Source: an uncultured Flavobacteriaceae bacterium (GTDB taxonomy: Bacteria > Bacteroidota > Bacteroidia > Flavobacteriales > Flavobacteriaceae). Taken from it: a stretch of 37,008 nt of DNA. Of the stretch, positions 14,142 through 28,034 are shown one piece after another (the first letter of the stretch is position 1; each line of letters begins with the position of its first letter). Below the pieces are notes generated by a model. The model ran no database searches and was not told the origin of the DNA. It was given only the letters and a program-made list of their open reading frames with translations. The translations under genes and the position numbers were made by a program. The stretch is from the NCBI GenBank assembly GCA_938084555.1, contig CALKFR010000067.1:1-37008 (forward strand), in the 5' to 3' direction.

Positions 14142-14798
14142 ATGGCAAAAAAGAAAAAAATTACTCAAAATGACATTACTACATGGTATATGGAGTATGT
14201 CCTAAATCACAACAAAAAACCATCATCTGTTTATAGTTTTGCAAAAGAAAATAATTTTGATGAAAGTTTATTTTATAACTATTATGCATCATTCGAAGCT
14301 ATTGAAAAAGGTGTATTTAAATCCTTTTTCAATGCTACTGTTACATTGTTAGAAAAGAGTGAAGACTACACAGATTATGATCCTCGAAACAAGTTGTTAA
14401 GTTTTTATTATACTTTTTTTGAAAATTTAACTGCAAATAGAAGTTATGTTGTTTATGCATTAGCAGGAAATAAAAATCAACTCAAATCTTTAGCTGCTTT
14501 AACAGAACTAAAAAAATCATTCTCTGAATATATTGAAATTTTAAATATTAAAACCATAGATTTTAAAGAGGAACGTATAGAAAAGCTTCAGCTAAGATCG
14601 TTGAAAGAAACTGCATGGCTGCAATTATTGGTAACCATGAAATTTTGGTTAGAAGACACCTCTTCTTCATTTGAAAAAACTGATATTTTTATTGAAAAAT
14701 CTGTAAAAGCAAGTTTTGATCTCATAGACACCACTCCACTCAAAAGCATTATTGATTTTGGTAAGTTTTTATTTAAAGAAAAAATTCACAACAAATAG
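14142..14798 (+). CDS. TetR-like transcriptional regulator
   Basis: N-terminal HTH-like SVYSFAKENNFDESLFYNYYASFEAIEKGVFKSFF followed by a helical TetR-type C-terminal region; 218 aa. Confidence 0.7.
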   Translation: MAKKKKITQNDITTWYMEYVLNHNKKPSSVYSFAKENNFDESLFYNYYASFEAIEKGVFKSFFNATVTLLEKSEDYTDYDPRNKLLSFYYTFFENLTANRSYVVYALAGNKNQLKSLAALTELKKSFSEYIEILNIKTIDFKEERIEKLQLRSLKETAWLQLLVTMKFWLEDTSSSFEKTDIFIEKSVKASFDLIDTTPLKSIIDFGKFLFKEKIHNK

Positions 14799-14803
14799 GC
14801 TAA

Positions 14804-16114
14804 ATGAAAACCATAGACACTATCCCTACATCAAAAATTCAAAGAGCAACAAGAATGGTGCAGACAGGCGCTAAAGTTGGAGTAAATTATATAAAGTATT
14901 ATAGTGATAAAATTACAAAAACTGAGCGAGAGGCAAAACAGCGTTTAAATGAAAATAATGCGGAAGATATATATGACGGATTAAAGAAATTGAAAGGAAG
15001 TGCATTAAAAGTTGCTCAAATGTTGAGTATGGAAAAAAGTATTCTTCCTCAAGCCTATGTTGAAAAATTTTCATTGGCACAATTTTCTGTTCCGCCATTA
15101 TCGCCTGCACTAGTGATTAAAACATTTAAAAAATATTTTGGTAAACATCCTAATCAAATTTTTGATAAATTCAACTCAACTTCGGTTAATGCGGCGAGTA
15201 TCGGCCAGGTTCATGCAGCTGAAAAATATGGTAAAAAACTAGCTGTAAAAATTCAATACCCAGGAGTAGCAGATAGTATTTCATCAGATTTATCACTTGT
15301 AAAACCAATTGCTATAAAAATGTTCAATATTAGAGGAAAAGATTCTGATAAATACTTTAAGGAAGTGGAAGATAAATTGGTAGAGGAAACCAATTATTTA
15401 CTTGAATTAGATCAAAGCAAAGAAATCGTTGAAAAATGTAAACATATTCCAAACTTAAAGTTTCCAAACTACTATCCAGAAATTTCATCAGATAGAATAA
15501 TAACTATGGATTGGATGAAAGGAGAGCACTTATCAGAATTTACTGCATACAATAGCAATTTAGTTATATCAAATAAACTTGGTCAGGCATTATGGGATTT
15601 TTATATGCATCAGCTTCATAATTTAAAAAAAGTACATGCAGATCCACATCCAGGAAATTTTCTTGTATCTAAAGAAGGTGATTTGATAGCTCTAGATTTT
15701 GGCTGTATGAAATCTATTCCCATTGAATTCTACATTCCTTATTTTGAATTAGCAATAGAAAAAAACATAAATAATCCTGAATTTTTCTTAAAAAAATTAT
15801 ATGAATTAGAAATTTTAAGAGAAGATGACTCACCAGAAGAAATTGTTTTTTTCAAAGATCTTTTTTATGAGTTACTTAGTTTATTTACCAAACCATTTAA
15901 TCAAGAAGTATTTGATTTTTCTGACCCTGATTTCTTTAACAAAATTACAGAACTTGGAGAAAGATATAGTAAGAGTACTGAGTTGAGAAAAATGAATGGT
16001 AATAGAGGTTCTAAACATTTTATATATATTAATAGAACTTTCTTTGGCCTCTATAATCTAATGTTTGATTTAAAGGCTAATGAAATTAAGATCAACAATT
16101 ACAAAAAACTATAG
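14804..16114 (+). CDS. ABC1/AarF/UbiB-family atypical kinase
   Basis: KLKGSALKVAQMLSMEKSILP, NAASIGQVHAAEKYGKKLAVKIQYPGV, KVHADPHPGNFLVSKEGDLIALDFGCMK. Confidence 0.93.
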   Translation: MKTIDTIPTSKIQRATRMVQTGAKVGVNYIKYYSDKITKTEREAKQRLNENNAEDIYDGLKKLKGSALKVAQMLSMEKSILPQAYVEKFSLAQFSVPPLSPALVIKTFKKYFGKHPNQIFDKFNSTSVNAASIGQVHAAEKYGKKLAVKIQYPGVADSISSDLSLVKPIAIKMFNIRGKDSDKYFKEVEDKLVEETNYLLELDQSKEIVEKCKHIPNLKFPNYYPEISSDRIITMDWMKGEHLSEFTAYNSNLVISNKLGQALWDFYMHQLHNLKKVHADPHPGNFLVSKEGDLIALDFGCMKSIPIEFYIPYFELAIEKNINNPEFFLKKLYELEILREDDSPEEIVFFKDLFYELLSLFTKPFNQEVFDFSDPDFFNKITELGERYSKSTELRKMNGNRGSKHFIYINRTFFGLYNLMFDLKANEIKINNYKKL

Positions 16115-16744
16115 ATGCATTATACTAGAGATCAAATAAATGACCTTGAAAAGATTAAAAAAATTAACTTAATTAATTCATGTTCAGGCTATAAATCTGC
16201 TAATCTAATAGGAAGTATTTCTAAAGAGGGTATAACTAATGTAGCTGTTTTTAGCTCTGTAACTCATTTAGGCTCTAACCCTCCTACTTTAGGTTTTATT
16301 TTAAGACCAACAACAGTTCCAAGAGATACTTACAAAAATATTCTTGAATCTGGTGTATTTACAATTAATCATATCTTCGAAGATATTATAGAAGACGCTC
16401 ATCACACTTCTGCGAAATATAAGGAAGAAATTTCAGAATTTGATATTACAGCGTTAGAAGATGAATACCACAATAACTGCATTGCTCCTTTTGTTAAGGG
16501 ATCTCCAGTTCAAATGGAAATGAAATTTATAGAAGAGTATCATATAAAATCAAATAATGTTATTCACATCATTGCAGAAATAAAAAATTTGTATGTTAAG
16601 GATGATATTTTAAATCAAGATGGATTTTTAGACTTAGCTAAAGGAAAAGTAGCAGCTATTAATGGATTAGATGCTTATGCTATAGCCAATGCCAATACTA
16701 GATTTAACTATCAAAGACCTAAGAAATTTAATTCGATGAAGTAG
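16115..16744 (+). CDS. Flavin reductase-like / FMN-binding split-barrel protein
   Basis: NLIGSISKEGITNVAVFSSVTHLGSNPPTLGFILRPTTVPRDTYKNILESGVFTINHI is typical of the flavin-reductase-like domain. Confidence 0.85.
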   Translation: MHYTRDQINDLEKIKKINLINSCSGYKSANLIGSISKEGITNVAVFSSVTHLGSNPPTLGFILRPTTVPRDTYKNILESGVFTINHIFEDIIEDAHHTSAKYKEEISEFDITALEDEYHNNCIAPFVKGSPVQMEMKFIEEYHIKSNNVIHIIAEIKNLYVKDDILNQDGFLDLAKGKVAAINGLDAYAIANANTRFNYQRPKKFNSMK

Positions 16745-16745
16745 T

Positions 16746-18167
16746 ATGAAAATTCTCATTACAGGAGCAACTGGTTATATAGGAAAACGTTTAATACCAA
16801 TATTGTTAAACGAAGGACATCACTTGATATGCACTGTAAGAGACGTCGCTAGAATTGAAAATATTTATACTAAAGAAGAAAATATAGAATTTGTTGAAAT
16901 TGATTTTTTGAAAGTAAATTCATTAAATCTAATTCCATCAGAATTTGACATTGCTTTTTATCTCATTCATTCCATGTCTAACTCTGCAAAAGAGTTTCAT
17001 ATTCTTGAAGAACGTTGTGCTTTTAATTTTAAACGAGCTCTAGAAAAAACAACAGTAAAGCAAGTTATTTATCTCAGTGGTATAACAAATGACACCAAGC
17101 TGTCTAAACATTTACTTTCTAGAAAAAATGTTGAAAACACACTTCAATCTTCACATTATGCTTTAACTACTTTTAAAGCTGGAATTATTGTTGGATCTGG
17201 AAGCTCCTCTTTTGAGATAATTAGAGATTTAGTTGAAAAACTTCCCCTTATGATTGCTCCAAAATGGCTGAATACGAAAACACAACCTATTGGAGTTAGA
17301 GATGTTTTATCTTTTTTAACCAAAGCAATTGGTAAAGATGATTTGTATGATAAATCTTTTGACATATATGGCCCACAGATATTAACTTATAAAGAAATGC
17401 TTTTGCAGTTCGCAAAGTTTCGGGGACTAAAAAGAACTATAATAACAGTTCCAATAATGACACCAAAACTGTCTTCTTATTGGTTATATTTTGTTACATC
17501 AACCTCTTATAAATTAGCGTCCTCTCTAGTGAATAGTATGGGGATAGAGATTATAGGTGAAAAATCTCCTATCAATTCACTATTGGGAATTCAACCAATG
17601 AATTACAAAAAAGCTGTAGAACTAGCTTTTATTAAAATTGAACAAAACAGTATTGTATCTAGTTGGAAAGATTCTTATATAAGTAGTGGAAAACTCCAAA
17701 ATATTCACAAATATATCAACGTACCGAGTTATGGGTGTTTTAAAGACTTTAAGCAAAGAAACGTTATTAATACAGAAAAAACTATTCATAAAATTTGGTC
17801 TATTGGTGGAGATAACGGATGGTATTATGGAACATTTTTATGGAAAATTAGAGGGTATATAGATCAGTTTTATGGAGGTACAGGCTTAAGAAGAGGAAGA
17901 AGAAGCCCTACAGAATTACTAGATGGAGATGCATTAGATTTCTGGAGAGTAATTTACGCTGATAAGAAACAAAAAAAGTTATTGCTTTACGCAGAAATGA
18001 AATTACCCGGTGAAGCTTGGCTGGAATTTAAAATTGAAAACGATATTTTGTATCAAACAGCAACATTTAGACCAAAAGGGGTTGCAGGTAGGTTGTATTG
18101 GTTCTTAGTTACACCACTTCATTGGTTTGTTTTTAATGGAATGATTAATAGAATAATTAAACCCTAA
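16746..18167 (+). CDS. SDR-family NAD(P)-binding protein with C-terminal DUF2867-like region
   Basis: MKILITGATGYIGKRLIPILLNEGH Rossmann start; C-terminus YYGTFLWKIRGYIDQFYGGTGLRRGRRSPTELLDGDALDFWRV...LPGEAWLEFKI. Confidence 0.85.
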   Translation: MKILITGATGYIGKRLIPILLNEGHHLICTVRDVARIENIYTKEENIEFVEIDFLKVNSLNLIPSEFDIAFYLIHSMSNSAKEFHILEERCAFNFKRALEKTTVKQVIYLSGITNDTKLSKHLLSRKNVENTLQSSHYALTTFKAGIIVGSGSSSFEIIRDLVEKLPLMIAPKWLNTKTQPIGVRDVLSFLTKAIGKDDLYDKSFDIYGPQILTYKEMLLQFAKFRGLKRTIITVPIMTPKLSSYWLYFVTSTSYKLASSLVNSMGIEIIGEKSPINSLLGIQPMNYKKAVELAFIKIEQNSIVSSWKDSYISSGKLQNIHKYINVPSYGCFKDFKQRNVINTEKTIHKIWSIGGDNGWYYGTFLWKIRGYIDQFYGGTGLRRGRRSPTELLDGDALDFWRVIYADKKQKKLLLYAEMKLPGEAWLEFKIENDILYQTATFRPKGVAGRLYWFLVTPLHWFVFNGMINRIIKP

Positions 18168-18170
18168 GAT

Positions 18171-18299
18171 TTGAAAAAACAGCATCTGCCAGTAAAATAT
18201 TGTACAGTTTGTGAAAAACCATTTAAATGGAGAAAAAAATGGAAGATAAACTGGGAACAAGTTAAATATTGTAGTGAAAGATGCAGGAGAAACAAATAA
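18171..18299 (+). CDS. DUF2256-type small Cys4 protein (42 aa, TTG start; not in the supplied ORF track)
   Basis: TTG-initiated frame 3 nt after the SDR stop: (M)[41 protein letters not shown], with CxxC...CxxxC as in DUF2256. Confidence 0.8.
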
Positions 18300-19632
18300 A
18301 AATAAGTTAACGTTGACTGATAAAACAGAAATAAAAAATACAACAGGGCTAGTTTGGTTTGGAAACGACCTTAGAATTCATGATAATGATGTATTATCTC
18401 TTGCTATAAAAAATCATTCTAAAGTCATAGGTACATACATCATAGATCCCTTATTCTTCAAAGAAAATGAATTTGGATTTAAAAAAATGGATGTGTTTAG
18501 AACTCAATTTCTTTTAGAATCTTTAAATGATCTTCAACATCAATTATTAACAAAAAATATTTCCTTACTTGTTTTTACAGACAATCCAGAAATTAGACTT
18601 AAGGTTATTTGTGACAGTTATAAAATTGATTCTATCTACAAACAGAAAGAGTGGACGAATGAAGAAAATATTTCTAAAATAAAAGTTCAAAAAAATTTAA
18701 ACAAAAATATCAAAATCACAGAGGTCTACAATCAGTTTTTATATCACCCTGAAGATATTAATATTAATATCGATAGTATTCCTCAAGTATTTTCTAATTT
18801 AAGAAAGAAATTAGAAAAATATGTAGCCATTAGACCTAAAACTGAGATTCCAAAATTAAATCCAAATAATGTTATTAATACCACAACTACTATTCCTTCA
18901 TTAAGTGATCTTGGTTTTAATATTTTCGAAAAAGATAAAAAAACTGCTTTCCCATTTAGTGGTGGTGAAAATGAAGCACTCAAAAGGTTAACTAATTATT
19001 TTTTTGAAACAAAAAATTTAGGAATTTATAAAAAAACAAGAAATGGATTAATAGGTACAGACTATAGCTCTAAATTTTCTCCTTGGTTAGCCAATGGTTC
19101 TATTTCTGCTAGAACAATTTACTGGAGTGTTAAAAATTTTGAAGAGAGAGAAGTAAAAAATCAGTCTACATATTGGCTTATTTTTGAGTTGATTTGGAGA
19201 GATTATTTCAAATATATATCAATAAAATACGGTAACAATATTTTTAAGATTGGAGGAATTTTAAATAAAAACTACACATGGTCATCCAATAAAAAAATGA
19301 TACAAAATTGGATTAATGGAGAGACTAAAGATGACTTCGTTAATGCCAACATGATTGAATTAAGAAACACTGGTTGGATGAGTAATAGAGGAAGACAAAA
19401 TGTTGCCTCTTATTTTGCAAAAGAGCTAAAATTAGATTGGAGAATTGGCGCAGCTTATTTTGAATCTATACTACTAGACTATGATGTTCACAGCAATTAT
19501 GGAAACTGGATGTATGTATCCGGTGTTGGTAATGACCCAAGAGATCGAAAATTTAATACTCAACTTCAAGCAGAGCGATATGACCCCTCACATTTATTCA
19601 GAAAGCGCTGGCTTCAACAAACATTATTTTGA
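18274..19632 (+). CDS. Cryptochrome DASH-family protein (start uncertain: GTG 18274 or TTG 18313)
   Basis: [102 protein letters not shown] are CRY-DASH hallmarks. Confidence 0.93.
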
Positions 19633-19635
19633 CAA

Positions 19636-21111
19636 ATGAAAAAAGTTGCATTAGTATTTCCAAACCAGCTCTTTGAGGTTACACCTTTTCAAGATTTAAA
19701 ATGTGAGTTGTATTTAGTAGAAGAGTTTTTATTTTTTAATCATTACAAGTTTCACAAACAAAAAATTGCTTTTCACAGAGCCACTATGAAAAGTTATTCA
19801 AGTTACCTTACGTCACTTGGTTTTAAAGTTACCTACATCAATGCAATATCTGAATTTTCTGATATTAGAAAATTAATTTCTAAACTCATTAAAAATGGTT
19901 TACAAGATATACATGTTATTGAACCCAATGACAATTGGCTAGAAAAACATATAAAAAATACTACTAAAAATATTTCAATAACATGGTACAATAACCCTTT
20001 ATTCATTAATACTAAAAATGAACTTGATCCATTTTTTAATTCGTCTAAAAAGAAATTTTTTCAGACCTCTTTTTATAAACAACAACGTATAAAAAGAAAT
20101 ATATTAATGTCTAATGGAGAACCAGTAGGGGGAAAATTAACCTATGATTCAGAAAATAGAAAAAAATATCCAAAAAATAAAAAGCCACCTACAATTAACT
20201 TTCCAGAGAAAACACCCTATCACCTCGAAGCTGAGCAGTATGTTAACAGTCATTTTGATGCCCACTACGGTCATTTAAGTAGCTCAATTATTTATCCCAT
20301 AGATTTTAAAACCTCACAAGCTTGGCTTGAAGAGTTTTTAGAAAAAAGATTTAAAGAGTTTGGTGATTATGAAGATGCAATTGTGCAAAAAGAAGTTTTT
20401 TTAAATCATAGTATTTTATCTCCATTAATTAATGTTGGATTATTAAATCCTTTGGAGGTTATTAAGCAAACTCTCAAATTTGCAGAAAAAAATAATATTC
20501 CAATCAACTCCACAGAAGGGTTTGTCAGACAAATAATTGGTTGGCGAGAATTTATTAGAGGAGTCTATAATGTTAAAGGTTCAGAGGAACGCACCAAAAA
20601 CTTTTGGGGGTTTTCAAGAAAAATACCTGCTTCTTTCTACACTGGATCTACAGGTATAGAACCTATAGATGATGCTATCAAGAAGGTTTTGAATACAGGA
20701 TATGCTCATCACATTGAACGACTTATGATTTTGGGTAATTTTATGGTTTTATGTGAGTTTGACCCAGACGATGTGTATCAGTGGTTTATGGAGTTATTTA
20801 TAGACTCATATGATTGGGTTATGGTTCCTAATGTATATGGAATGAGTTTATATGCAGATGGTGGCTTAATGTCTACCAAACCCTATATAAGTAGCAGTAA
20901 CTACATCATGAAAATGAGTAATTACAAAAAAGGAGATTGGCAGGTAACATGGGATGGATTATTTTGGTCTTTTATGGATAAGCATCGAAATTTCTTTTTA
21001 AAAAACCCAAGGTTAGGTATGCTTGTAAGAACTTTTGATAAAATGACTCAGGATAAAAAAGACACACATTTTAAAAATGCTGAAAAATTTATAAAACAAT
21101 TAGATGAATAA
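19636..21111 (+). CDS. FeS-BCP / prokaryotic (6-4) photolyase (PhrB)-like protein lacking the Fe-S cluster cysteines
   Basis: EGFVRQIIGWREFIRGVY, GYAHHIERLMILGNFMVL, WVMVPNVYGMSLYADGG, TKPYISSSNYIMKMSNY are PhrB/CryB family motifs; only Cys23 and Cys373 occur in the protein. Confidence 0.9.
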   Translation: MKKVALVFPNQLFEVTPFQDLKCELYLVEEFLFFNHYKFHKQKIAFHRATMKSYSSYLTSLGFKVTYINAISEFSDIRKLISKLIKNGLQDIHVIEPNDNWLEKHIKNTTKNISITWYNNPLFINTKNELDPFFNSSKKKFFQTSFYKQQRIKRNILMSNGEPVGGKLTYDSENRKKYPKNKKPPTINFPEKTPYHLEAEQYVNSHFDAHYGHLSSSIIYPIDFKTSQAWLEEFLEKRFKEFGDYEDAIVQKEVFLNHSILSPLINVGLLNPLEVIKQTLKFAEKNNIPINSTEGFVRQIIGWREFIRGVYNVKGSEERTKNFWGFSRKIPASFYTGSTGIEPIDDAIKKVLNTGYAHHIERLMILGNFMVLCEFDPDDVYQWFMELFIDSYDWVMVPNVYGMSLYADGGLMSTKPYISSSNYIMKMSNYKKGDWQVTWDGLFWSFMDKHRNFFLKNPRLGMLVRTFDKMTQDKKDTHFKNAEKFIKQLDE

Positions 21112-22597
21112 AGAAAAAATAAATCTAGTTTGGTTAAAAAGAGATTTAAGATTACATGACAATGAGGCCATAAGTAAAGCCATAAAAAATGGGAAAAGAT
21201 TTTTAATTTTTTATGCTTTTGAGAAAATTTTGATTCATGACCCCCATTATAATATTCGTCATTGGAATTTTATTAAAGAATCTCTAGTAGATATCAATAC
21301 AGAACTTAAAAAACATAAAACAAAAATATTGTCTGCAGCTTCAGATGTTATTGGATTGTGTAATCAAATTCAAAATTTCTACACAGTTCAAACCATCTAT
21401 TCACATCAAGAAACCGGAATTTTAACCACCTATACTAGGGATAAAGAATTTAAGAGGTACTGCAGAAATAATAATATTAATTGGATAGAAAATGTTAATA
21501 ATGGAGTTCAAAGAGGAATTCAACACCGAGAAAATTGGTATGATGAATGGGAAAAGTATATGAATGAGAAATTAGAGGTATTTAATCCTTTAGATGATCA
21601 ATTAATAAATATAGAGGATATTAAAAAAATAGAAAATATTTCAAATCCTGCATCATTAGAAACCTCATCTAATATAAAATTTCAAAAAGGAGGTAGAAGT
21701 TTAGGATATAGATATTTAAATAGTTTTTTTAAAGAAAGACACAAAGACTATATGTATAATATATCTAAACCTACACAGTCAAGAACTAGTTGTAGTAGAC
21801 TATCTCCATACTTAGCCTGGGGTAATCTATCAGTAAGAGAAGTATTTCAGATTGGAAGAAAAGAAAAAAACAAAAAAAATGCCAAACATATAGGGGCATT
21901 TTTATCTAGACTTCGATGGCAAGCACATTTCATACAAAAATTTGAAATGGAACATGTAATGGAAAAAGCAAGCGTGAATAAAGGATATCATAAGCTTAAA
22001 AAATCCATTTCAAAAAAATATCAAGATGCATGGATCAATGGAAAAACAGGTTTTCCTTTAGTAGATGCATGTATGCGATGCCTTAAAGAAACTGGGTATT
22101 TAAATTTTAGAATGCGTGCATTAACTGTTTCCTTTTTCACACATATCCTTTGGCAACCTTGGCAAGATGCTACAACACACCTCTCACAAATGTTTTTAGA
22201 TTTTGAACCAGGAATACATTTTCCTCAACTTCAGATGCAAGCTGGAGAAACAGGAATAAACAATCTTAGAATTTACAATCCCATAAAAAATGGGAAAGAG
22301 CATGATGAAGATGCTGTTTTTATAAAAAAATGGGTTCCAGAACTGAAAAATTTAGATACTCATTTTGCTCACGAACCCTATTTAATGACTCCTCTTGAGC
22401 AACAGATGTATAACTTTACGCTAGGAAAAGATTACCCAAACCCAATTGTTGATTTAAGAAAAACGAGAAAAAAAGCATCAGATATCCTCTGGAATTTGAA
22501 GAAAAACTCTGAGGTTAGAAAAGAAAACAAAAGAATACTTCTTAAACATACATTATCCAATAGGGATATATTACTTTCAGATAATGTAAAAGTTTAA
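21104..22597 (+). CDS. Cryptochrome/photolyase-family protein, divergent FAD-binding motif
   Basis: NLVWLKRDLRLHDNEAISKA photolyase N-terminus; SRLSPYLAWGNLSVREVFQ, GFPLVDACMRCLKETGYLNFRMRALTVSFF, DFEPGIHFPQLQMQAGETGINNLRIYNP; 8-bp overlap with the preceding gene. Confidence 0.92.
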   Translation: MNKEKINLVWLKRDLRLHDNEAISKAIKNGKRFLIFYAFEKILIHDPHYNIRHWNFIKESLVDINTELKKHKTKILSAASDVIGLCNQIQNFYTVQTIYSHQETGILTTYTRDKEFKRYCRNNNINWIENVNNGVQRGIQHRENWYDEWEKYMNEKLEVFNPLDDQLINIEDIKKIENISNPASLETSSNIKFQKGGRSLGYRYLNSFFKERHKDYMYNISKPTQSRTSCSRLSPYLAWGNLSVREVFQIGRKEKNKKNAKHIGAFLSRLRWQAHFIQKFEMEHVMEKASVNKGYHKLKKSISKKYQDAWINGKTGFPLVDACMRCLKETGYLNFRMRALTVSFFTHILWQPWQDATTHLSQMFLDFEPGIHFPQLQMQAGETGINNLRIYNPIKNGKEHDEDAVFIKKWVPELKNLDTHFAHEPYLMTPLEQQMYNFTLGKDYPNPIVDLRKTRKKASDILWNLKKNSEVRKENKRILLKHTLSNRDILLSDNVKV

Positions 22598-22674
22598 CTC
22601 CCTAAAAAGGTGAATTTTAAAAAAATAATGTAGAAAAGTCATACCCTAATTATTTGTTAATTTTTGTCTAACTA

Positions 22675-22706
22675 TTTGATAAAGTCATTAAACAAAATTA
22701 CATTTG
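22675..22706 (+). promoter_or_regulatory. Bacteroidetes-type promoter TTTG-N20-TACATTTG
   Basis: TTTG at 22675-22678, 20-bp spacer, TACATTTG at 22699-22706 (consensus TTTG-N19..21-TAnnTTTG), 5 bp before the ATG at 22712. Confidence 0.65.
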
Positions 22707-22711
22707 GATGA

Positions 22712-23143
22712 ATGATATTCTCTACAACATATACCAACAAGGAAGCAAGAGATCTGACTAACGATTTAATAGGATTGCCTTTTTCATTCCTTCAATCATT
22801 AAAAATGGGAGGTATAGGCTCTAAAAGGATGATTATTGAAGAAACGAGCCAAAACTTTTATCAATATATCAATAATACATCTGATATAAGCTACGCAAAT
22901 ATAGAGCTTCGACCTAAGGGAATAATTATTCTAATAAATAAAGGTCTTAACAATTTTAATTGGGTAATACCCTATAGACAATTGGTTATTTATAAAACTG
23001 ATAGATTTAGTATTCATGCTCAAGGAAAATACGTCTGTTTTAAGAATAATATTCTTTATAAAGAAAACAAAAAATTCATTTCAAAAATGATAATCCTGAA
23101 AACACTTTACCAAGAAAAGTATTTAAACCATGCTTATGAATAA
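22712..23143 (+). CDS. Uncharacterised protein (143 aa) within the photolyase cluster
   Basis: Intact ORF immediately after a consensus promoter; overlaps the DUF2805 gene by 14 nt; no family recognised. Confidence 0.7.
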   Translation: MIFSTTYTNKEARDLTNDLIGLPFSFLQSLKMGGIGSKRMIIEETSQNFYQYINNTSDISYANIELRPKGIIILINKGLNNFNWVIPYRQLVIYKTDRFSIHAQGKYVCFKNNILYKENKKFISKMIILKTLYQEKYLNHAYE

Positions 23144-23411
23144 ATTATCAATTACTGATATAGATAGAATCATTGAAATGGCATGGGAAGACAGAACAAC
23201 ATTTGAAGCCATAAAGTTTCAGTTTGGTCTTGGTGAACAAGAAGTTATTAGTTTGATGAGAAATGAAATGAAATTGAAAAGTTTTAAATTATGGAGAAAG
23301 AGAGTTCAAGGAAGAAAAACCAAACATAGTAAACTAAGAGATTTTGAAAGTGGAAGGTTTAAGTGCACCAGACAAAGACAAATATCTAATAACTCTATTT
23401 CAAAAAGATAA
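23130..23411 (+). CDS. DUF2805 / TIGR03643-family protein
   Basis: ITDIDRIIEMAWEDRTTFEAIKFQFGLGEQEVISLMRNEMKLKSFKLWRKRVQGRKTKHSKLR matches the family as remembered. Confidence 0.88.
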   Translation: MLMNKLSITDIDRIIEMAWEDRTTFEAIKFQFGLGEQEVISLMRNEMKLKSFKLWRKRVQGRKTKHSKLRDFESGRFKCTRQRQISNNSISKR

Positions 23412-23471
23412 ACCAGTGCTTTGTTTTAAGTCTAGAGTACTTAAAAACAGCACAAAAAAAGATGAAAAAAT

Positions 23472-24170
23472 ATGAATACGAATAGATTAATAAAAGAACT
23501 AACAAAAGTGAGTAAGCTTAATGGTTTTTCATTCGATGATATTGGCGATGATCATTTATATACAGGATTAGAAACTCCAATGAAGCCAGACGCTTTTTTG
23601 ATATCTGATGAAGAAAAAAAAGAAAAAATTGCAATTTTATTCAAAGAAATTATGGACGTAATGGGTTTAGATCTCACAGATGATTCTCTTAAGGGTACTC
23701 CAAAAAGAGTAGCTAAAATGTACATAGATGAAATATTTTCTGGATTAAATCCTAATAATAAGCCAAAAATTGCTTTATTTGACAATAAATATCAATATAA
23801 TCAGATGTTGGTTGAGAAGAATATTACTTTCTACTCAAATTGTGAACATCATTTTGTACCAATTATAGGTAAGGCACATATTGCATACATATCATCTGGA
23901 AAAGTAATAGGACTCTCCAAATTGAATCGAATTGTTCAATATTATGCCAAGAGACCTCAAGTACAAGAAAGGTTAACAAATCAAATTGCAGAAGAATTAA
24001 AAACTTCTTTGCAAACAGAAAATGTAGCTGTTATTATTGATGCTAAACATTTATGCGTATCATCTAGAGGTATTAAAGATGATACTTCCGCAACAGTTAC
24101 CTCATATTATGGAGGAGAATTTAATACTCCAGAAAAAATTAACGAATTATTGAACTATTTAAAAGGTTAA
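23472..24170 (+). CDS. folE: GTP cyclohydrolase I
   Basis: TPKRVAKMYIDEIFSGL, NITFYSNCEHHFVPIIGKAHIAYI, VIGLSKLNRIVQYYAKRPQVQERLTNQIAEEL, HLCVSSRGIKDDTSATVTSYYGG. Confidence 0.96.
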   Translation: MNTNRLIKELTKVSKLNGFSFDDIGDDHLYTGLETPMKPDAFLISDEEKKEKIAILFKEIMDVMGLDLTDDSLKGTPKRVAKMYIDEIFSGLNPNNKPKIALFDNKYQYNQMLVEKNITFYSNCEHHFVPIIGKAHIAYISSGKVIGLSKLNRIVQYYAKRPQVQERLTNQIAEELKTSLQTENVAVIIDAKHLCVSSRGIKDDTSATVTSYYGGEFNTPEKINELLNYLKG

Positions 24171-24173
24171 ACA

Positions 24174-24401
24174 ATGGACATCATAGAAAGAGCTTCAGAA
24201 TTTGAGCACAGAAAACATAAATTCATTACCACAAGTGATCGAATAATAGCTTCAAGAGAAGTTAAAGGATTAATCTTAGAAATTAATGACATCTACAAGG
24301 AAAATAAAGATCCTGAATTAATGGACTTAATGAAAAGATTAACGGTAATTAAGCAGAAAATCGAAAAAAGACTCAAGGGTAGACCTCTAACATCTAGTTA
24401 A
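24174..24401 (+). CDS. Small uncharacterised charged protein (75 aa)
   Basis: ORF 3 nt after the folE stop and 3 nt before the SDR start; no family recognised. Confidence 0.6.
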   Translation: MDIIERASEFEHRKHKFITTSDRIIASREVKGLILEINDIYKENKDPELMDLMKRLTVIKQKIEKRLKGRPLTSS

Positions 24402-24404
24402 ATA

Positions 24405-25088
24405 ATGCGAAAAATTATAATTGTTGGAGGTAGTCGAGGAATCGGAAACTCCCTTCTTACCTCGCTAGTTGAAAATAACAAAGTTATCAATATTAGTAGG
24501 GTCCAACCTACCCTATCACATACTAATTTAACTCATTACACTTGTGATATTTTAATTGATGAACTCCCTGATTTAATGGAAGCTGATTCAATTATATATT
24601 GTCCTGGAAGTATCAACTTAAAACCAATATCACGATTAAAGCTAGATGATTTTAGAAATGATTTTGAAATTAATGTAGTTGGTGCTGTAAAGACCATACA
24701 AAAATATCTTACCATTTTAAAAAAAGGTAATTGTCCATCGGTTGTTCTTTTTAGTACTGTAGCAACAGAACTTGGAATGCCTTATCATGCTAGTGTAGCT
24801 GCTGCAAAATCTGCAGTTGAAGGATTGGTAAAATCATTAGGTGCAGAGTTAGCGCCTACAATCAGAATAAATGCTATTGCCCCTACCGTCACAGATACAG
24901 ATTTAGCATCTAAGTTCTTTAGAAATGAAAAAATGATTGATATGATTATAGAACGTCATCCACTTAAAAAGTTTCTTGATCCTAAAGAAGTCGCAGATAT
25001 GGCAGAATTCTTACTCTCTCCAAAAGCATCATCGATCTCAGGTCAAGTTTTTAAAATGGATTGTGGAATTGTTAGTTTTAAAATCTAA
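24405..25088 (+). CDS. SDR-family protein with atypical catalytic motif
   Basis: IIIVGGSRGIGNSL, SIIYCPGSINLKP, MPYHASVAAAKSAVEGLVKSLGAELAPTIRINAIAPTVTDTDLA; the usual YxxxK tyrosine position is Val. Confidence 0.87.
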   Translation: MRKIIIVGGSRGIGNSLLTSLVENNKVINISRVQPTLSHTNLTHYTCDILIDELPDLMEADSIIYCPGSINLKPISRLKLDDFRNDFEINVVGAVKTIQKYLTILKKGNCPSVVLFSTVATELGMPYHASVAAAKSAVEGLVKSLGAELAPTIRINAIAPTVTDTDLASKFFRNEKMIDMIIERHPLKKFLDPKEVADMAEFLLSPKASSISGQVFKMDCGIVSFKI

Positions 25089-25089
25089 T

Positions 25090-25629
25090 ATGAATCCGTT
25101 TGCAGTTTTCATTAAAACATTGTCTAAAACCAATAAACCTATAAAAATGTCAGCATCAAAATCGTTGTATGATATCAAGATTGATTCACTACAAGGGAAA
25201 TCAATTGATTTTTCATCCTTTAAAGGAAAAAAAATATTGTTTGTAAATGTGGCTTCAAAGTGTGGATTCACCCCCCAATATAAAGACCTTCAAAAGTTAT
25301 ATAATCAATACCAAGACAAATTAGTTGTTATTGGTGTTCCTTGCAATCAATTTGGGAAACAAGAACCAGGTAAGGCTGATGAAATTGAAGAATTCTGCCA
25401 GGTAAACTATGGTGTATCATTCTTAATTACTGAAAAAATTGATGTAAAAGGTAATCAACAACACCCCCTATACACATGGTTAACATCAAAAACTGAAAAT
25501 GGAAGAAAAAATTCTTCTGTAAAATGGAATTTTCAAAAATATTTGATCGATGAAAATGGTGAATTAATTGATTATTATTATTCAATAACCTCTCCAACTA
25601 GTTCTAAAATAAAAAAACACCTGAAATAA
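25090..25629 (+). CDS. Glutathione peroxidase (track ORF 24976..25629 starts too early; likely start 25090, possibly 25147)
   Basis: FVNVASKCGFTPQYKDLQKLY, VIGVPCNQFGKQEPG, VKWNFQKYLID; 24976-25088 overlaps the upstream SDR gene in another frame. Confidence 0.92.
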   Translation: MNPFAVFIKTLSKTNKPIKMSASKSLYDIKIDSLQGKSIDFSSFKGKKILFVNVASKCGFTPQYKDLQKLYNQYQDKLVVIGVPCNQFGKQEPGKADEIEEFCQVNYGVSFLITEKIDVKGNQQHPLYTWLTSKTENGRKNSSVKWNFQKYLIDENGELIDYYYSITSPTSSKIKKHLK

Positions 25630-25631
25630 AA

Positions 25632-25802
25632 ATGTTTGGACTCTTTAAAAAAAAATCAGAGATAGAAAAATTAGAACATCTTTACAAAAAAAAGATGAAA
25701 GAAGGATATGATCTTCAATCTATTGATAGAAGTGCTAGTGACCAAAAGTATGTTGAGGCAGACCAAATATTAAAGAAAATTGAATCCTTAGAAAAAAAGT
25801 GA
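25632..25802 (+). CDS. Small Lacal_2735-like protein (56 aa; not in the supplied ORF track)
   Basis: MFGLFKKKSEIEKLEHLYKKKMKEGYDLQSIDRSASDQKYVEADQILKKIESLEKK*, resembling the flavobacterial Lacal_2735 family; stop overlaps the GTG of the next gene. Confidence 0.75.
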   Translation: MFGLFKKKSEIEKLEHLYKKKMKEGYDLQSIDRSASDQKYVEADQILKKIESLEKK

Positions 25803-26266
25803 TTATCAAAAATTTTAAATACTTAATTTTATTTCTAATCATCAATTTTGGTGGATTAGCATTAGGGAGTTTGCTCATGAATAATGGCCCAAATACAGAT
25901 TGGTATTTTAGTTTAGCAAAAGCCCCTTGGTCACCACCAGGATGGGTTTTTGGAGCCGCCTGGACAAGTATTATGATTTGTTTTTCTATCTATTTAGTTT
26001 TTCTTTTCACGAAGCATTATAGCCAAAAGAAACTAATTTTATTTATTATTCAATTTTTCTTGAATGTTAGTTGGAACTATATTTTTTTTAATAAGCATCA
26101 AGTTTTTACAGCACTCATTTCTATAATTTTGTTAACTGCATTAATTTTCTTTTTTTTCTTTCACTTTAATAAGGAAATAAAAAAAGCTAGTTATTTACTT
26201 CTCCCCTATATGATTTGGCTTTGTATCGCCACTTCATTAAACCTTTATATTTTGATACATAATTAG
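25799..26266 (+). CDS. tspO: TspO/MBR-family membrane protein (GTG start)
   Basis: LAKAPWSPPGWVFGAAWTSIMICFSIYL, NVSWNYIFFNKHQ, LLPYMIWLCIATSLNLYI. Confidence 0.92.
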   Translation: MIIKNFKYLILFLIINFGGLALGSLLMNNGPNTDWYFSLAKAPWSPPGWVFGAAWTSIMICFSIYLVFLFTKHYSQKKLILFIIQFFLNVSWNYIFFNKHQVFTALISIILLTALIFFFFFHFNKEIKKASYLLLPYMIWLCIATSLNLYILIHN

Positions 26267-26268
26267 AG

Positions 26269-26736
26269 ATGAAAATATATACACTTCACAAAACTCAAAA
26301 ATTACCAATATCCATCAATGAAGCTTGGGAGTTTTTATCTAACCCTAAAAATTTATCAGAATTAACACCAAAAGAAATGAATTTTAAAATCATTTCAAAT
26401 GACCAAAAGAAAATGTACGCTGGTCAAATCATTCAATACAGCGTAACTCCAATTGCTAATATTAAAACAAAATGGATAAGTGAAATTACACATTTAAAAG
26501 AAGGAAAATATTTTGTAGACCTTCAACTCTATGGTCCGTATGCTTTTTGGCATCATAAACATTTTATTCATGAAATTGAAGGTGGAGTTGAAATGGAGGA
26601 TATTATTGATTATAAAGTTCCTTTTGGAATGCTCGGACGTATGATTCATCCATTTGCAGTAAAACCTAAACTAGAGAAAATTTTCAACTACAGGCAACAA
26701 AAATTAGTAGAACGCTTCGGAAAATATAATAAATAA
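26269..26736 (+). CDS. SRPBCC-family protein
   Basis: INEAWEFLSNPKNLSELTPKEMNFKI... VEMEDIIDYKVPFGMLGRMIHPFAVKPKLEKIFNYRQQKL is typical of SRPBCC proteins adjacent to photolyases. Confidence 0.88.
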   Translation: MKIYTLHKTQKLPISINEAWEFLSNPKNLSELTPKEMNFKIISNDQKKMYAGQIIQYSVTPIANIKTKWISEITHLKEGKYFVDLQLYGPYAFWHHKHFIHEIEGGVEMEDIIDYKVPFGMLGRMIHPFAVKPKLEKIFNYRQQKLVERFGKYNK

Positions 26737-28034
26737 TGGATAAGATTTCAATTTTTTGGTTTCGAAGAGATTTAAGGCTTCACGATAATAAAGGCTTTTT
26801 CCGTGCACTTCAATCTGAGGAAAAGATACTGCCAATTTTTATTTTTGATACTGAAATACTTAAAAAAATACCTAAAGACGATGCCCGTATTTCATTCATT
26901 TTCTCTGAATTAAAGGCTATGAATACTCATTTGGAATCATTTGAAACTGAGATAAAAATGTTTCATGGAAACCCAAAAGATATTTTTAAATCATTATTGA
27001 ATAAATTTAAAATAGTAAAGGTGTATACAAACCATGACTATGAACCCTATGCGATAAAAAGAGATTTAGTCATCAAAGAATTATTAGCTAAAAATAAAAT
27101 TGACTTTCAGACCTACAAAGACCAAGTAATTTTTGAAAGAAATGAAATTACAAAAAAAGATGGCAAACCCTATGTAGTTTATACTCCATATTCAAAAAAA
27201 TGGTTGGAAAAATACCAAACAAGTAAACCCGAATATTATCCCTCAGAGGATTATTTAATTAGACTTTATAAAAAAACAATATCAAAAATCATAACATTAA
27301 GTGATCTTGGGTTTATTGAAACTAATATCCCTATAAAAAACTACATTTTTAATTCTAGAATTATTAATGAATATGAAGAAACGCGTAATTTTCCGGCACT
27401 AGACAATACATCTAAACTTGGTCCTCACCTTCGTTTTGGTACTGTTAGTATTCGTCAAATGGTTTCCAGAGCAGATGAGCAAGAAAATAAAATTTTTCTT
27501 AAAGAATTAATTTGGAGAGAATTTTTTATGCAAATATTATGGCATTTTCCACATACACACAAAAATTCTTTCAAATCTAAATACGATAGAATTATTTGGA
27601 GAAATAATGAAGAAGAATTTAAAAAATGGTGTGATGGGAACACTGGATATCCAATGGTAGATGCCGGAATGAGACAATTAAACAAAACTGGCTTTATGCA
27701 TAATAGAGTTCGAATGCTTGTAGGAAGTTTTTTATGCAAACATTTACTTATTGATTGGCGTTGGGGCGAAGCATATTTCGCTGAAAAATTACATGACTAT
27801 GAGATGTCTAGTAATGTTGGAAACTGGCAATGGGTAGCTGGTACTGGTGTTGATGCATCACCTTATTTTAGAATTTTTAATCCTACTAGTCAAATTCAAA
27901 AGTTTGATAAAGAATTAAAATATATTAAAAAATGGGTTCCAGATTTTCAGGAACTAACCTATCCAAGTCCTATGGTAGAGCATAAATTTGCAAGAGAACG
28001 TTGCCTTAAAACTTACAAAGATGCTCTTGCCTAA
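26736..28034 (+). CDS. phr: Deoxyribodipyrimidine photolyase (class I CPD-type)
   Basis: ISIFWFRRDLRLHDNKGFFRAL, GYPMVDAGMRQLNKTGFMHNRVRMLVGSFLCKHLLIDWRWGEAYFAEKLHDYEMSSNVGNWQWVAGTGVDASPYFRIFNP. Confidence 0.95.
   Translation: MDKISIFWFRRDLRLHDNKGFFRALQSEEKILPIFIFDTEILKKIPKDDARISFIFSELKAMNTHLESFETEIKMFHGNPKDIFKSLLNKFKIVKVYTNHDYEPYAIKRDLVIKELLAKNKIDFQTYKDQVIFERNEITKKDGKPYVVYTPYSKKWLEKYQTSKPEYYPSEDYLIRLYKKTISKIITLSDLGFIETNIPIKNYIFNSRIINEYEETRNFPALDNTSKLGPHLRFGTVSIRQMVSRADEQENKIFLKELIWREFFMQILWHFPHTHKNSFKSKYDRIIWRNNEEEFKKWCDGNTGYPMVDAGMRQLNKTGFMHNRVRMLVGSFLCKHLLIDWRWGEAYFAEKLHDYEMSSNVGNWQWVAGTGVDASPYFRIFNPTSQIQKFDKELKYIKKWVPDFQELTYPSPMVEHKFARERCLKTYKDALA

Follow-up and report, generated by a model that had tools for sequence, protein, structure and literature searches.

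The gene at 19636..21111 of the window (the whole stretch of 37,008 nucleotides analysed here) most probably encodes a (6-4) photolyase whose catalytic core uses only FAD and which lacks a [4Fe-4S] cluster, being stabilised by the protein itself and exchanged in its operon slot with an Fe-S enzyme through recombination in the flanking genes, a reading to which we give a probability of roughly 0.8. As far as gene sequences go, the comparisons show that the cluster ligands are absent, that the active site is kept, that the carriers of this state form one clade, and that both enzyme types use the same slot, with repeated switches between them. Repair activity and the absence of metal would be the likely properties of the protein, and recombination the likely mechanism of the exchange. 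The gene and the parts of it on which the argument turns are:

19636..21111, + strand: cluster-less prokaryotic (6-4) photolyase (the 'slot' gene), 491 aa, identified by its ORF, Pfam, PDB relatives and AF2/Foldseek
20662..20664, + strand: codon of Pro343, site of the first cluster cysteine (PhrB C350), from the 193-protein alignment
20710..20712, + strand: codon of His359, equivalent to PhrB His366, invariant in 193/193
20926..20952, + strand: residues 431-439, KKGDWQVTW, in place of the cluster loop (C438, C441, C454), from alignment and model

Domains, sequence, predicted fold and active-site residues all place the slot protein among the prokaryotic (6-4) photolyases. The frame is intact, with an ATG start and 491 codons, and its G+C content of 29.9% is in line with the 28-31% of the neighbouring genes, so that base composition says nothing for or against a foreign origin. 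Pfam finds the DPRP domain (PF04244) over the cut-off (E 1.3e-49), and FAD_binding_7 (PF03441) at E 2.9e-5 with 24.0 bits, slightly under the curated cut-off of 27 bits. Every solved relative, at about 30% identity, is a prokaryotic (6-4) photolyase (Caulobacter 9hnk, Vibrio 7ykn/8a1h, Synechococcus 8ijy, CryB 3zxs and PhrB 4dja). A structure prediction, which the sequence-only reading had proposed as a check, points the same way: the AlphaFold (AF2) model (pLDDT 95.9, pTM 0.94) has prokaryotic (6-4) photolyases as its top 11 Foldseek matches (TM 0.88-0.93), with 0.92-0.93 against PhrB, CryB and the Caulobacter photolyase. Membership in another photolyase class, named in that reading as what would speak against it, is ruled out by Foldseek, where the other classes reach a TM of at most 0.60. 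The central claim made from the letters, a homologue of FeS-BCP/(6-4) photolyases without the four cluster cysteines, is therefore upheld by ligands, domains, fold and residues alike.

The translation of the ORF contains two cysteines in total, Cys23 and Cys373, as had been counted before, and none of the four FeS-BCP ligands (0/4). Judged by its residues, such a protein cannot ligate a [4Fe-4S] cluster in the known way. This is an all-or-nothing state: in an alignment of 193 proteins, from Bacteroidota and plasmid-borne outgroups, all four ligand cysteines are present in 74, none in 119, and there are no intermediates. The column of PhrB C350 is Pro in 118/119 cluster-less proteins and Cys in 74/74 Fe-S proteins, which bears out the earlier assignment of C350 to Pro343. 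The assignments of C438 to Lys431 and C441 to Asp434 stand as the ungapped way of reading a segment treated by MAFFT as a deletion, the two readings being equivalent, and the shortening of the C454 loop by about 10 residues is matched by 10 fewer residues from MSxY to LYW/LFW. The cluster loop is 10 residues shorter throughout the cluster-less clade, with a conserved KGxWQxxWDGLFW instead, whose W435 and W439 are near-invariant (116/119). In the model of the slot protein a helix (434-449) begins right after residues 429-433, whereas L086, an Fe-S homologue compared with it by secondary structure, keeps a loop of 20 residues.

Whether cluster absence defines a clade was also among the checks proposed. 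It does: in a tree built without the trait's own columns the cluster-less proteins make up one side of a single branch (SH-aLRT 100). By this alignment, the cluster-less state is that of a large clade across Bacteroidota and no private loss of this genome. The description of the cluster as 'lost' therefore stands as to the absence of the ligands and falls as to a loss particular to this bacterium; it also assumes an ancestral cluster, and the midpoint-rooted tree, whose outgroup is too distant to root it, has a single long branch between the cluster-less and the Fe-S forms and carries no direction, be it loss or gain. Cluster-less homologues also occur on two IMG/VR viral contigs of 6 kb (L270) and 83 kb (L275), at 43% and 36% identity to the slot protein, respectively, and both group on the cluster-less side. 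A search of plasmid and phage collections for cyanobacterial cluster-less sequences found none.

Beyond the cluster, the slot protein conserves the residues of catalysis and of the lesion site. H366 and Y424 of PhrB are essential for (6-4) repair, as seen with mutants, and H366, L370, M410, Y424, Y430, D179 and D254 are all essential or important (PMC4619345); their equivalents are kept in essentially all members of both classes. The slot protein has H359, the lesion-contact Y417, and D171 and D247, which map to the Mg2+ site. Retention of the HH dyad and of the GWRE motif, noticed from the letters, is confirmed. This conservation is the basis for a putative assignment of its specificity, whether for (6-4) lesions, for CPDs or for signalling. 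In 19/119 cluster-less proteins (e.g., L027, L039, L040, L047), none of them in an operon slot, and in no Fe-S member, Asn takes the place of the pair's first His (the His358 equivalent), so function may vary within the cluster-less clade.

The electron-transfer chain, on the other hand, is by the aligned residues altered in the cluster-less clade at W342, Y391/Y395 and E403. Tyr replaces W342 in 106/119 proteins, Phe replaces Y391 in 119/119, Y395 in 99/119 and Y460 in 111/119, and Met replaces E403 in 119/119, W390 being kept in 118/119. If our interpretation is correct, blue light would excite FADH-, an electron would pass from it to the (6-4) lesion, and His359 (H366 in PhrB) would protonate the lesion, whilst photoreduction of the FAD would take a changed path along Tyr335, Trp383, Phe384, Phe388 and Met396. 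The stabilising role of the cluster would be taken over by the protein, with the loop cut by some 10 residues, the next helix lengthened, the C350 site fixed as Pro and the two tryptophans probably packing at the former cluster site.

The slot protein would be made from a photoprotection operon that also supplies a DASH cryptochrome, another photolyase-family protein, a flavin reductase and folE. The order is tetR-abc1-flavin reductase-SDR/DUF2867-DASH-[slot]-PHR-x-DUF2805-folE, and the order and spacing of these ten genes suggest that they are co-transcribed. Besides the slot gene, they are:

14142..14798, + strand: first gene of the operon, a TetR-type regulator (PF17931, 7.2e-45)
14804..16114, + strand: ABC1/UbiB-like kinase (PF03109, 1.7e-52)
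16115..16744, + strand: flavin-reductase-like protein (PF01613, 9.3e-17)
16746..18167, + strand: SDR and DUF2867 protein (Pfam; conserved order)
18274..19632, + strand: DASH cryptochrome, immediately 5' of the slot (TIGR02765, 474.7 bits, cut-off 317)
21104..22597, + strand: PHR, second photolyase/cryptochrome-family gene, with an 8-base overlap with the slot gene (FAD_binding_7, 2.6e-61; PDB relatives 1np7, 2e0i and cryptochromes)
22712..23143, + strand: 143-aa protein (x) with no Pfam/NCBIfam match, conserved in the operon
23130..23411, + strand: DUF2805/TIGR03643 protein (profile match)
23472..24170, + strand: GTP cyclohydrolase I, folE (PF01227, 6.5e-62)

The operon is part of a photoprotection island (14142-28034) that holds, further on, an SDR (24405-25088), a TspO-like protein (25799-26266) and a photolyase related to the class I CPD photolyases (26736-28034), so that some 10 kb of DNA hold four genes of the photolyase family.

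Both types of the enzyme are common among close relatives of the carrier. The genome search covered the window's GTDB genus, which contains Polaribacter (including Polaribacter porphyrae), with 148 genomes sampled from a larger total; the Fe-S type had its four cysteines in every locus fetched, and the remaining genomes were typed by identity to the window protein. The family is present in 102/148 genomes, as the cluster-less type in 56, as the Fe-S type in 48 and as both in 2, a co-occurrence (2/148) with a Fisher p of 4e-10 that is uncorrected for phylogeny. Those two genomes are G409, with 5% contamination, and G553, whose cluster-less copy has stop codons and whose Fe-S gene is intact. Where the nearer flanks are complete (60 operons), the slot is cluster-less in 23 and Fe-S in 37, and no locus among the 60 has both types together in it. 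As an indirect look at the idea of iron limitation, genome sizes were compared: near-complete genomes with the cluster-less gene are larger, at a median of 3.9 Mb against 3.1 Mb, a difference uncontrolled for phylogeny and habitat that does not suggest streamlining. A third state of the slot also exists, since three operon versions are without the gene (L287 in G397, L284 in G448 and L285 in G460); L287 lacks both DASH and the slot gene and keeps PHR to folE. Decayed cluster-less copies lie outside the operon, one with two stops (L241, G553:C100) and one with a frameshift (L242, G530), and G553 has its intact Fe-S gene (L240) in the operon slot.

On a tree of the concatenated flank proteins there are 8 switches of slot type, or at least 7 when only strongly supported branches are counted. 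The window is cluster-less, as are the two relatives closest to it (L208 and L264), and the next relatives by their flanks (L204 and L239, 85%) are Fe-S. The clearest pair is that of the sisters L250 (cluster-less) and L236 (Fe-S), which are 94% identical in DASH, 98% in PHR and 99% in folE, and 31% in the slot, with nucleotide identity dropping just past the DASH stop codon and recovering at the PHR start. An insert of about 1.3 kb splits the PHR downstream of the slot in L250 (G444). The pair of L244 (cluster-less) and L201 (Fe-S) shares 96-98% identity upstream of the slot, 31% within it and 72% in PHR, and is by this pattern a mosaic with one breakpoint at the slot. Species of the genus carry either the cluster-less or the Fe-S enzyme, and the repeated swaps were probably brought about by recombination in the flanking genes.

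The same distribution could in principle descend from an ancestral operon with genes of both types in tandem, of which lineages lost one or the other with no exchange at all, and the correlation of slot with flank distances inside each of the two types (r 0.92 and 0.97), as expected from vertical descent or from transfer in blocks, fits it, as does the existence of the decayed cluster-less copies. The latter, however, sit outside the operon, no operon of the 60 keeps both types in the slot, the L201/L244 mosaic has its breakpoint at the slot, and the two types would have had to co-exist for long and then be lost in parallel no fewer than 7 times within a single genus. We thus regard tandem loss as doubtful, and exchange by flank recombination is favoured over it. 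Another reading is that the protein no longer repairs DNA and serves as a cryptochrome-like receptor of light or as a regulator. This would agree with the altered electron-transfer chain, with the adjoining DASH cryptochrome and the TetR gene of the operon, and with the regulatory effects of RsCryB, of the same group (PMC9178010). Against it, every residue shown to be important for (6-4) repair is kept, PromaPL, itself cluster-less, has already been assigned to the (6-4) photolyases, and the gene alternates with the Fe-S enzyme in one slot, all of which makes this reading unlikely.

Further down the scale are two explanations that concern the missing cysteines themselves. Another metal centre, or a non-canonical cluster with different ligands, could be imagined from the near-invariance of C373 (114/119) in the cluster-less clade; yet this is the one conserved cysteine, and the cluster loop is gone, with a Trp-rich segment and a helix instead, so we consider it very improbable. 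As for a sequencing, assembly or binning artefact, the source MAG is indeed 62.8% complete and in 105 contigs, but the frame is intact and another 118 sequences share the state, isolates and complete single-contig genomes among them. A comparison with relatives had been proposed against sequencing error, and this is excluded by 80 Flavobacteriia relatives (59-90% identity, independent assemblies), all without the cluster ligands; together with the 119-protein cluster-less set, they rule out an artefact of a single MAG, and an origin of this kind is hardly credible.

Returning to the photolyase exchanged in its slot, repeated exchange in the same place would imply that the two enzymes are functionally interchangeable, probably as light-dependent (6-4) repair enzymes. 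A step further, we lean towards regarding the two types, some 32% identical within one genus, as alternative alleles of one slot, swapped many times by recombination. Exchange of this sort would mean that the [4Fe-4S] cluster is functionally dispensable, its presence being tuned by ecology (iron, oxygen, UV). The occurrence of cluster-less and Fe-S enzymes in the same slot, between neighbours up to 94-98% identical, amounts to a natural test of the role of the cluster, in which slot pairs could be compared for repair and photoreduction, for what they cost in iron and for survival under UV, and the conserved Trp-rich replacement reveals what evolution changed for doing without a structural cluster. 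The carrier is a marine flavobacterium. PromaPL goes back to Ma et al. 2019 (FEBS J, doi 10.1111/febs.14770), who reportedly assayed it and are said to have proposed marine iron limitation as the reason for the loss.

The sequence-only reading had allowed that cluster-less relatives might already be described, and they are. Among 110 prokaryotic (6-4) photolyases in seven subgroups, four cysteines were reported in all except subgroup M, whose 20 sequences come from multiple lineages, include PromaPL of Prochlorococcus marinus and have an intact electron-transfer chain in no member (PMC9178010, NAR 2022). Phr2 of marine Synechococcus is of the PromaPL type without Fe-S (PMC9426592), and several orthologues miss the cluster cysteines, the function of the cluster being unknown (PMC12082625); Cys mutants of PhrB were insoluble or unexpressed and hence could not be studied (PMC4619345). 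The slot protein is therefore not the first of its kind. It resembles PromaPL and subgroup M in its group, in having none of the four cysteines and in lacking an intact electron-transfer chain, a likeness to PromaPL by description and not by tree, and its Met at E403 fits the subgroup pattern, Met being frequent there in subgroups other than A, B and G (PMC9178010). With PhrB (4DJA), CryB (3ZXS) and the enzymes of Vibrio (8A1H/7YKN), Caulobacter (9HNK) and Synechococcus (SePhrB, 8IJY) it shares the fold, the FAD domain and the equivalents of His366, Tyr424 and Asp179/Asp254, but differs from these FeS-BCPs, at about 30% identity, in its 0/4 cysteines, its loop 10 residues shorter and the replacement of W342, Y391, Y395 and E403. 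The Fe-S slot enzymes of sister species (e.g., L236, L201 and L204) have the identical operon position and neighbours, whilst being 31-33% identical to the cluster-less type and keeping all four cysteines. Cluster-less photolyases are thus already known, and it is the operon context, with the two types alternating in one slot, that appears to be new.
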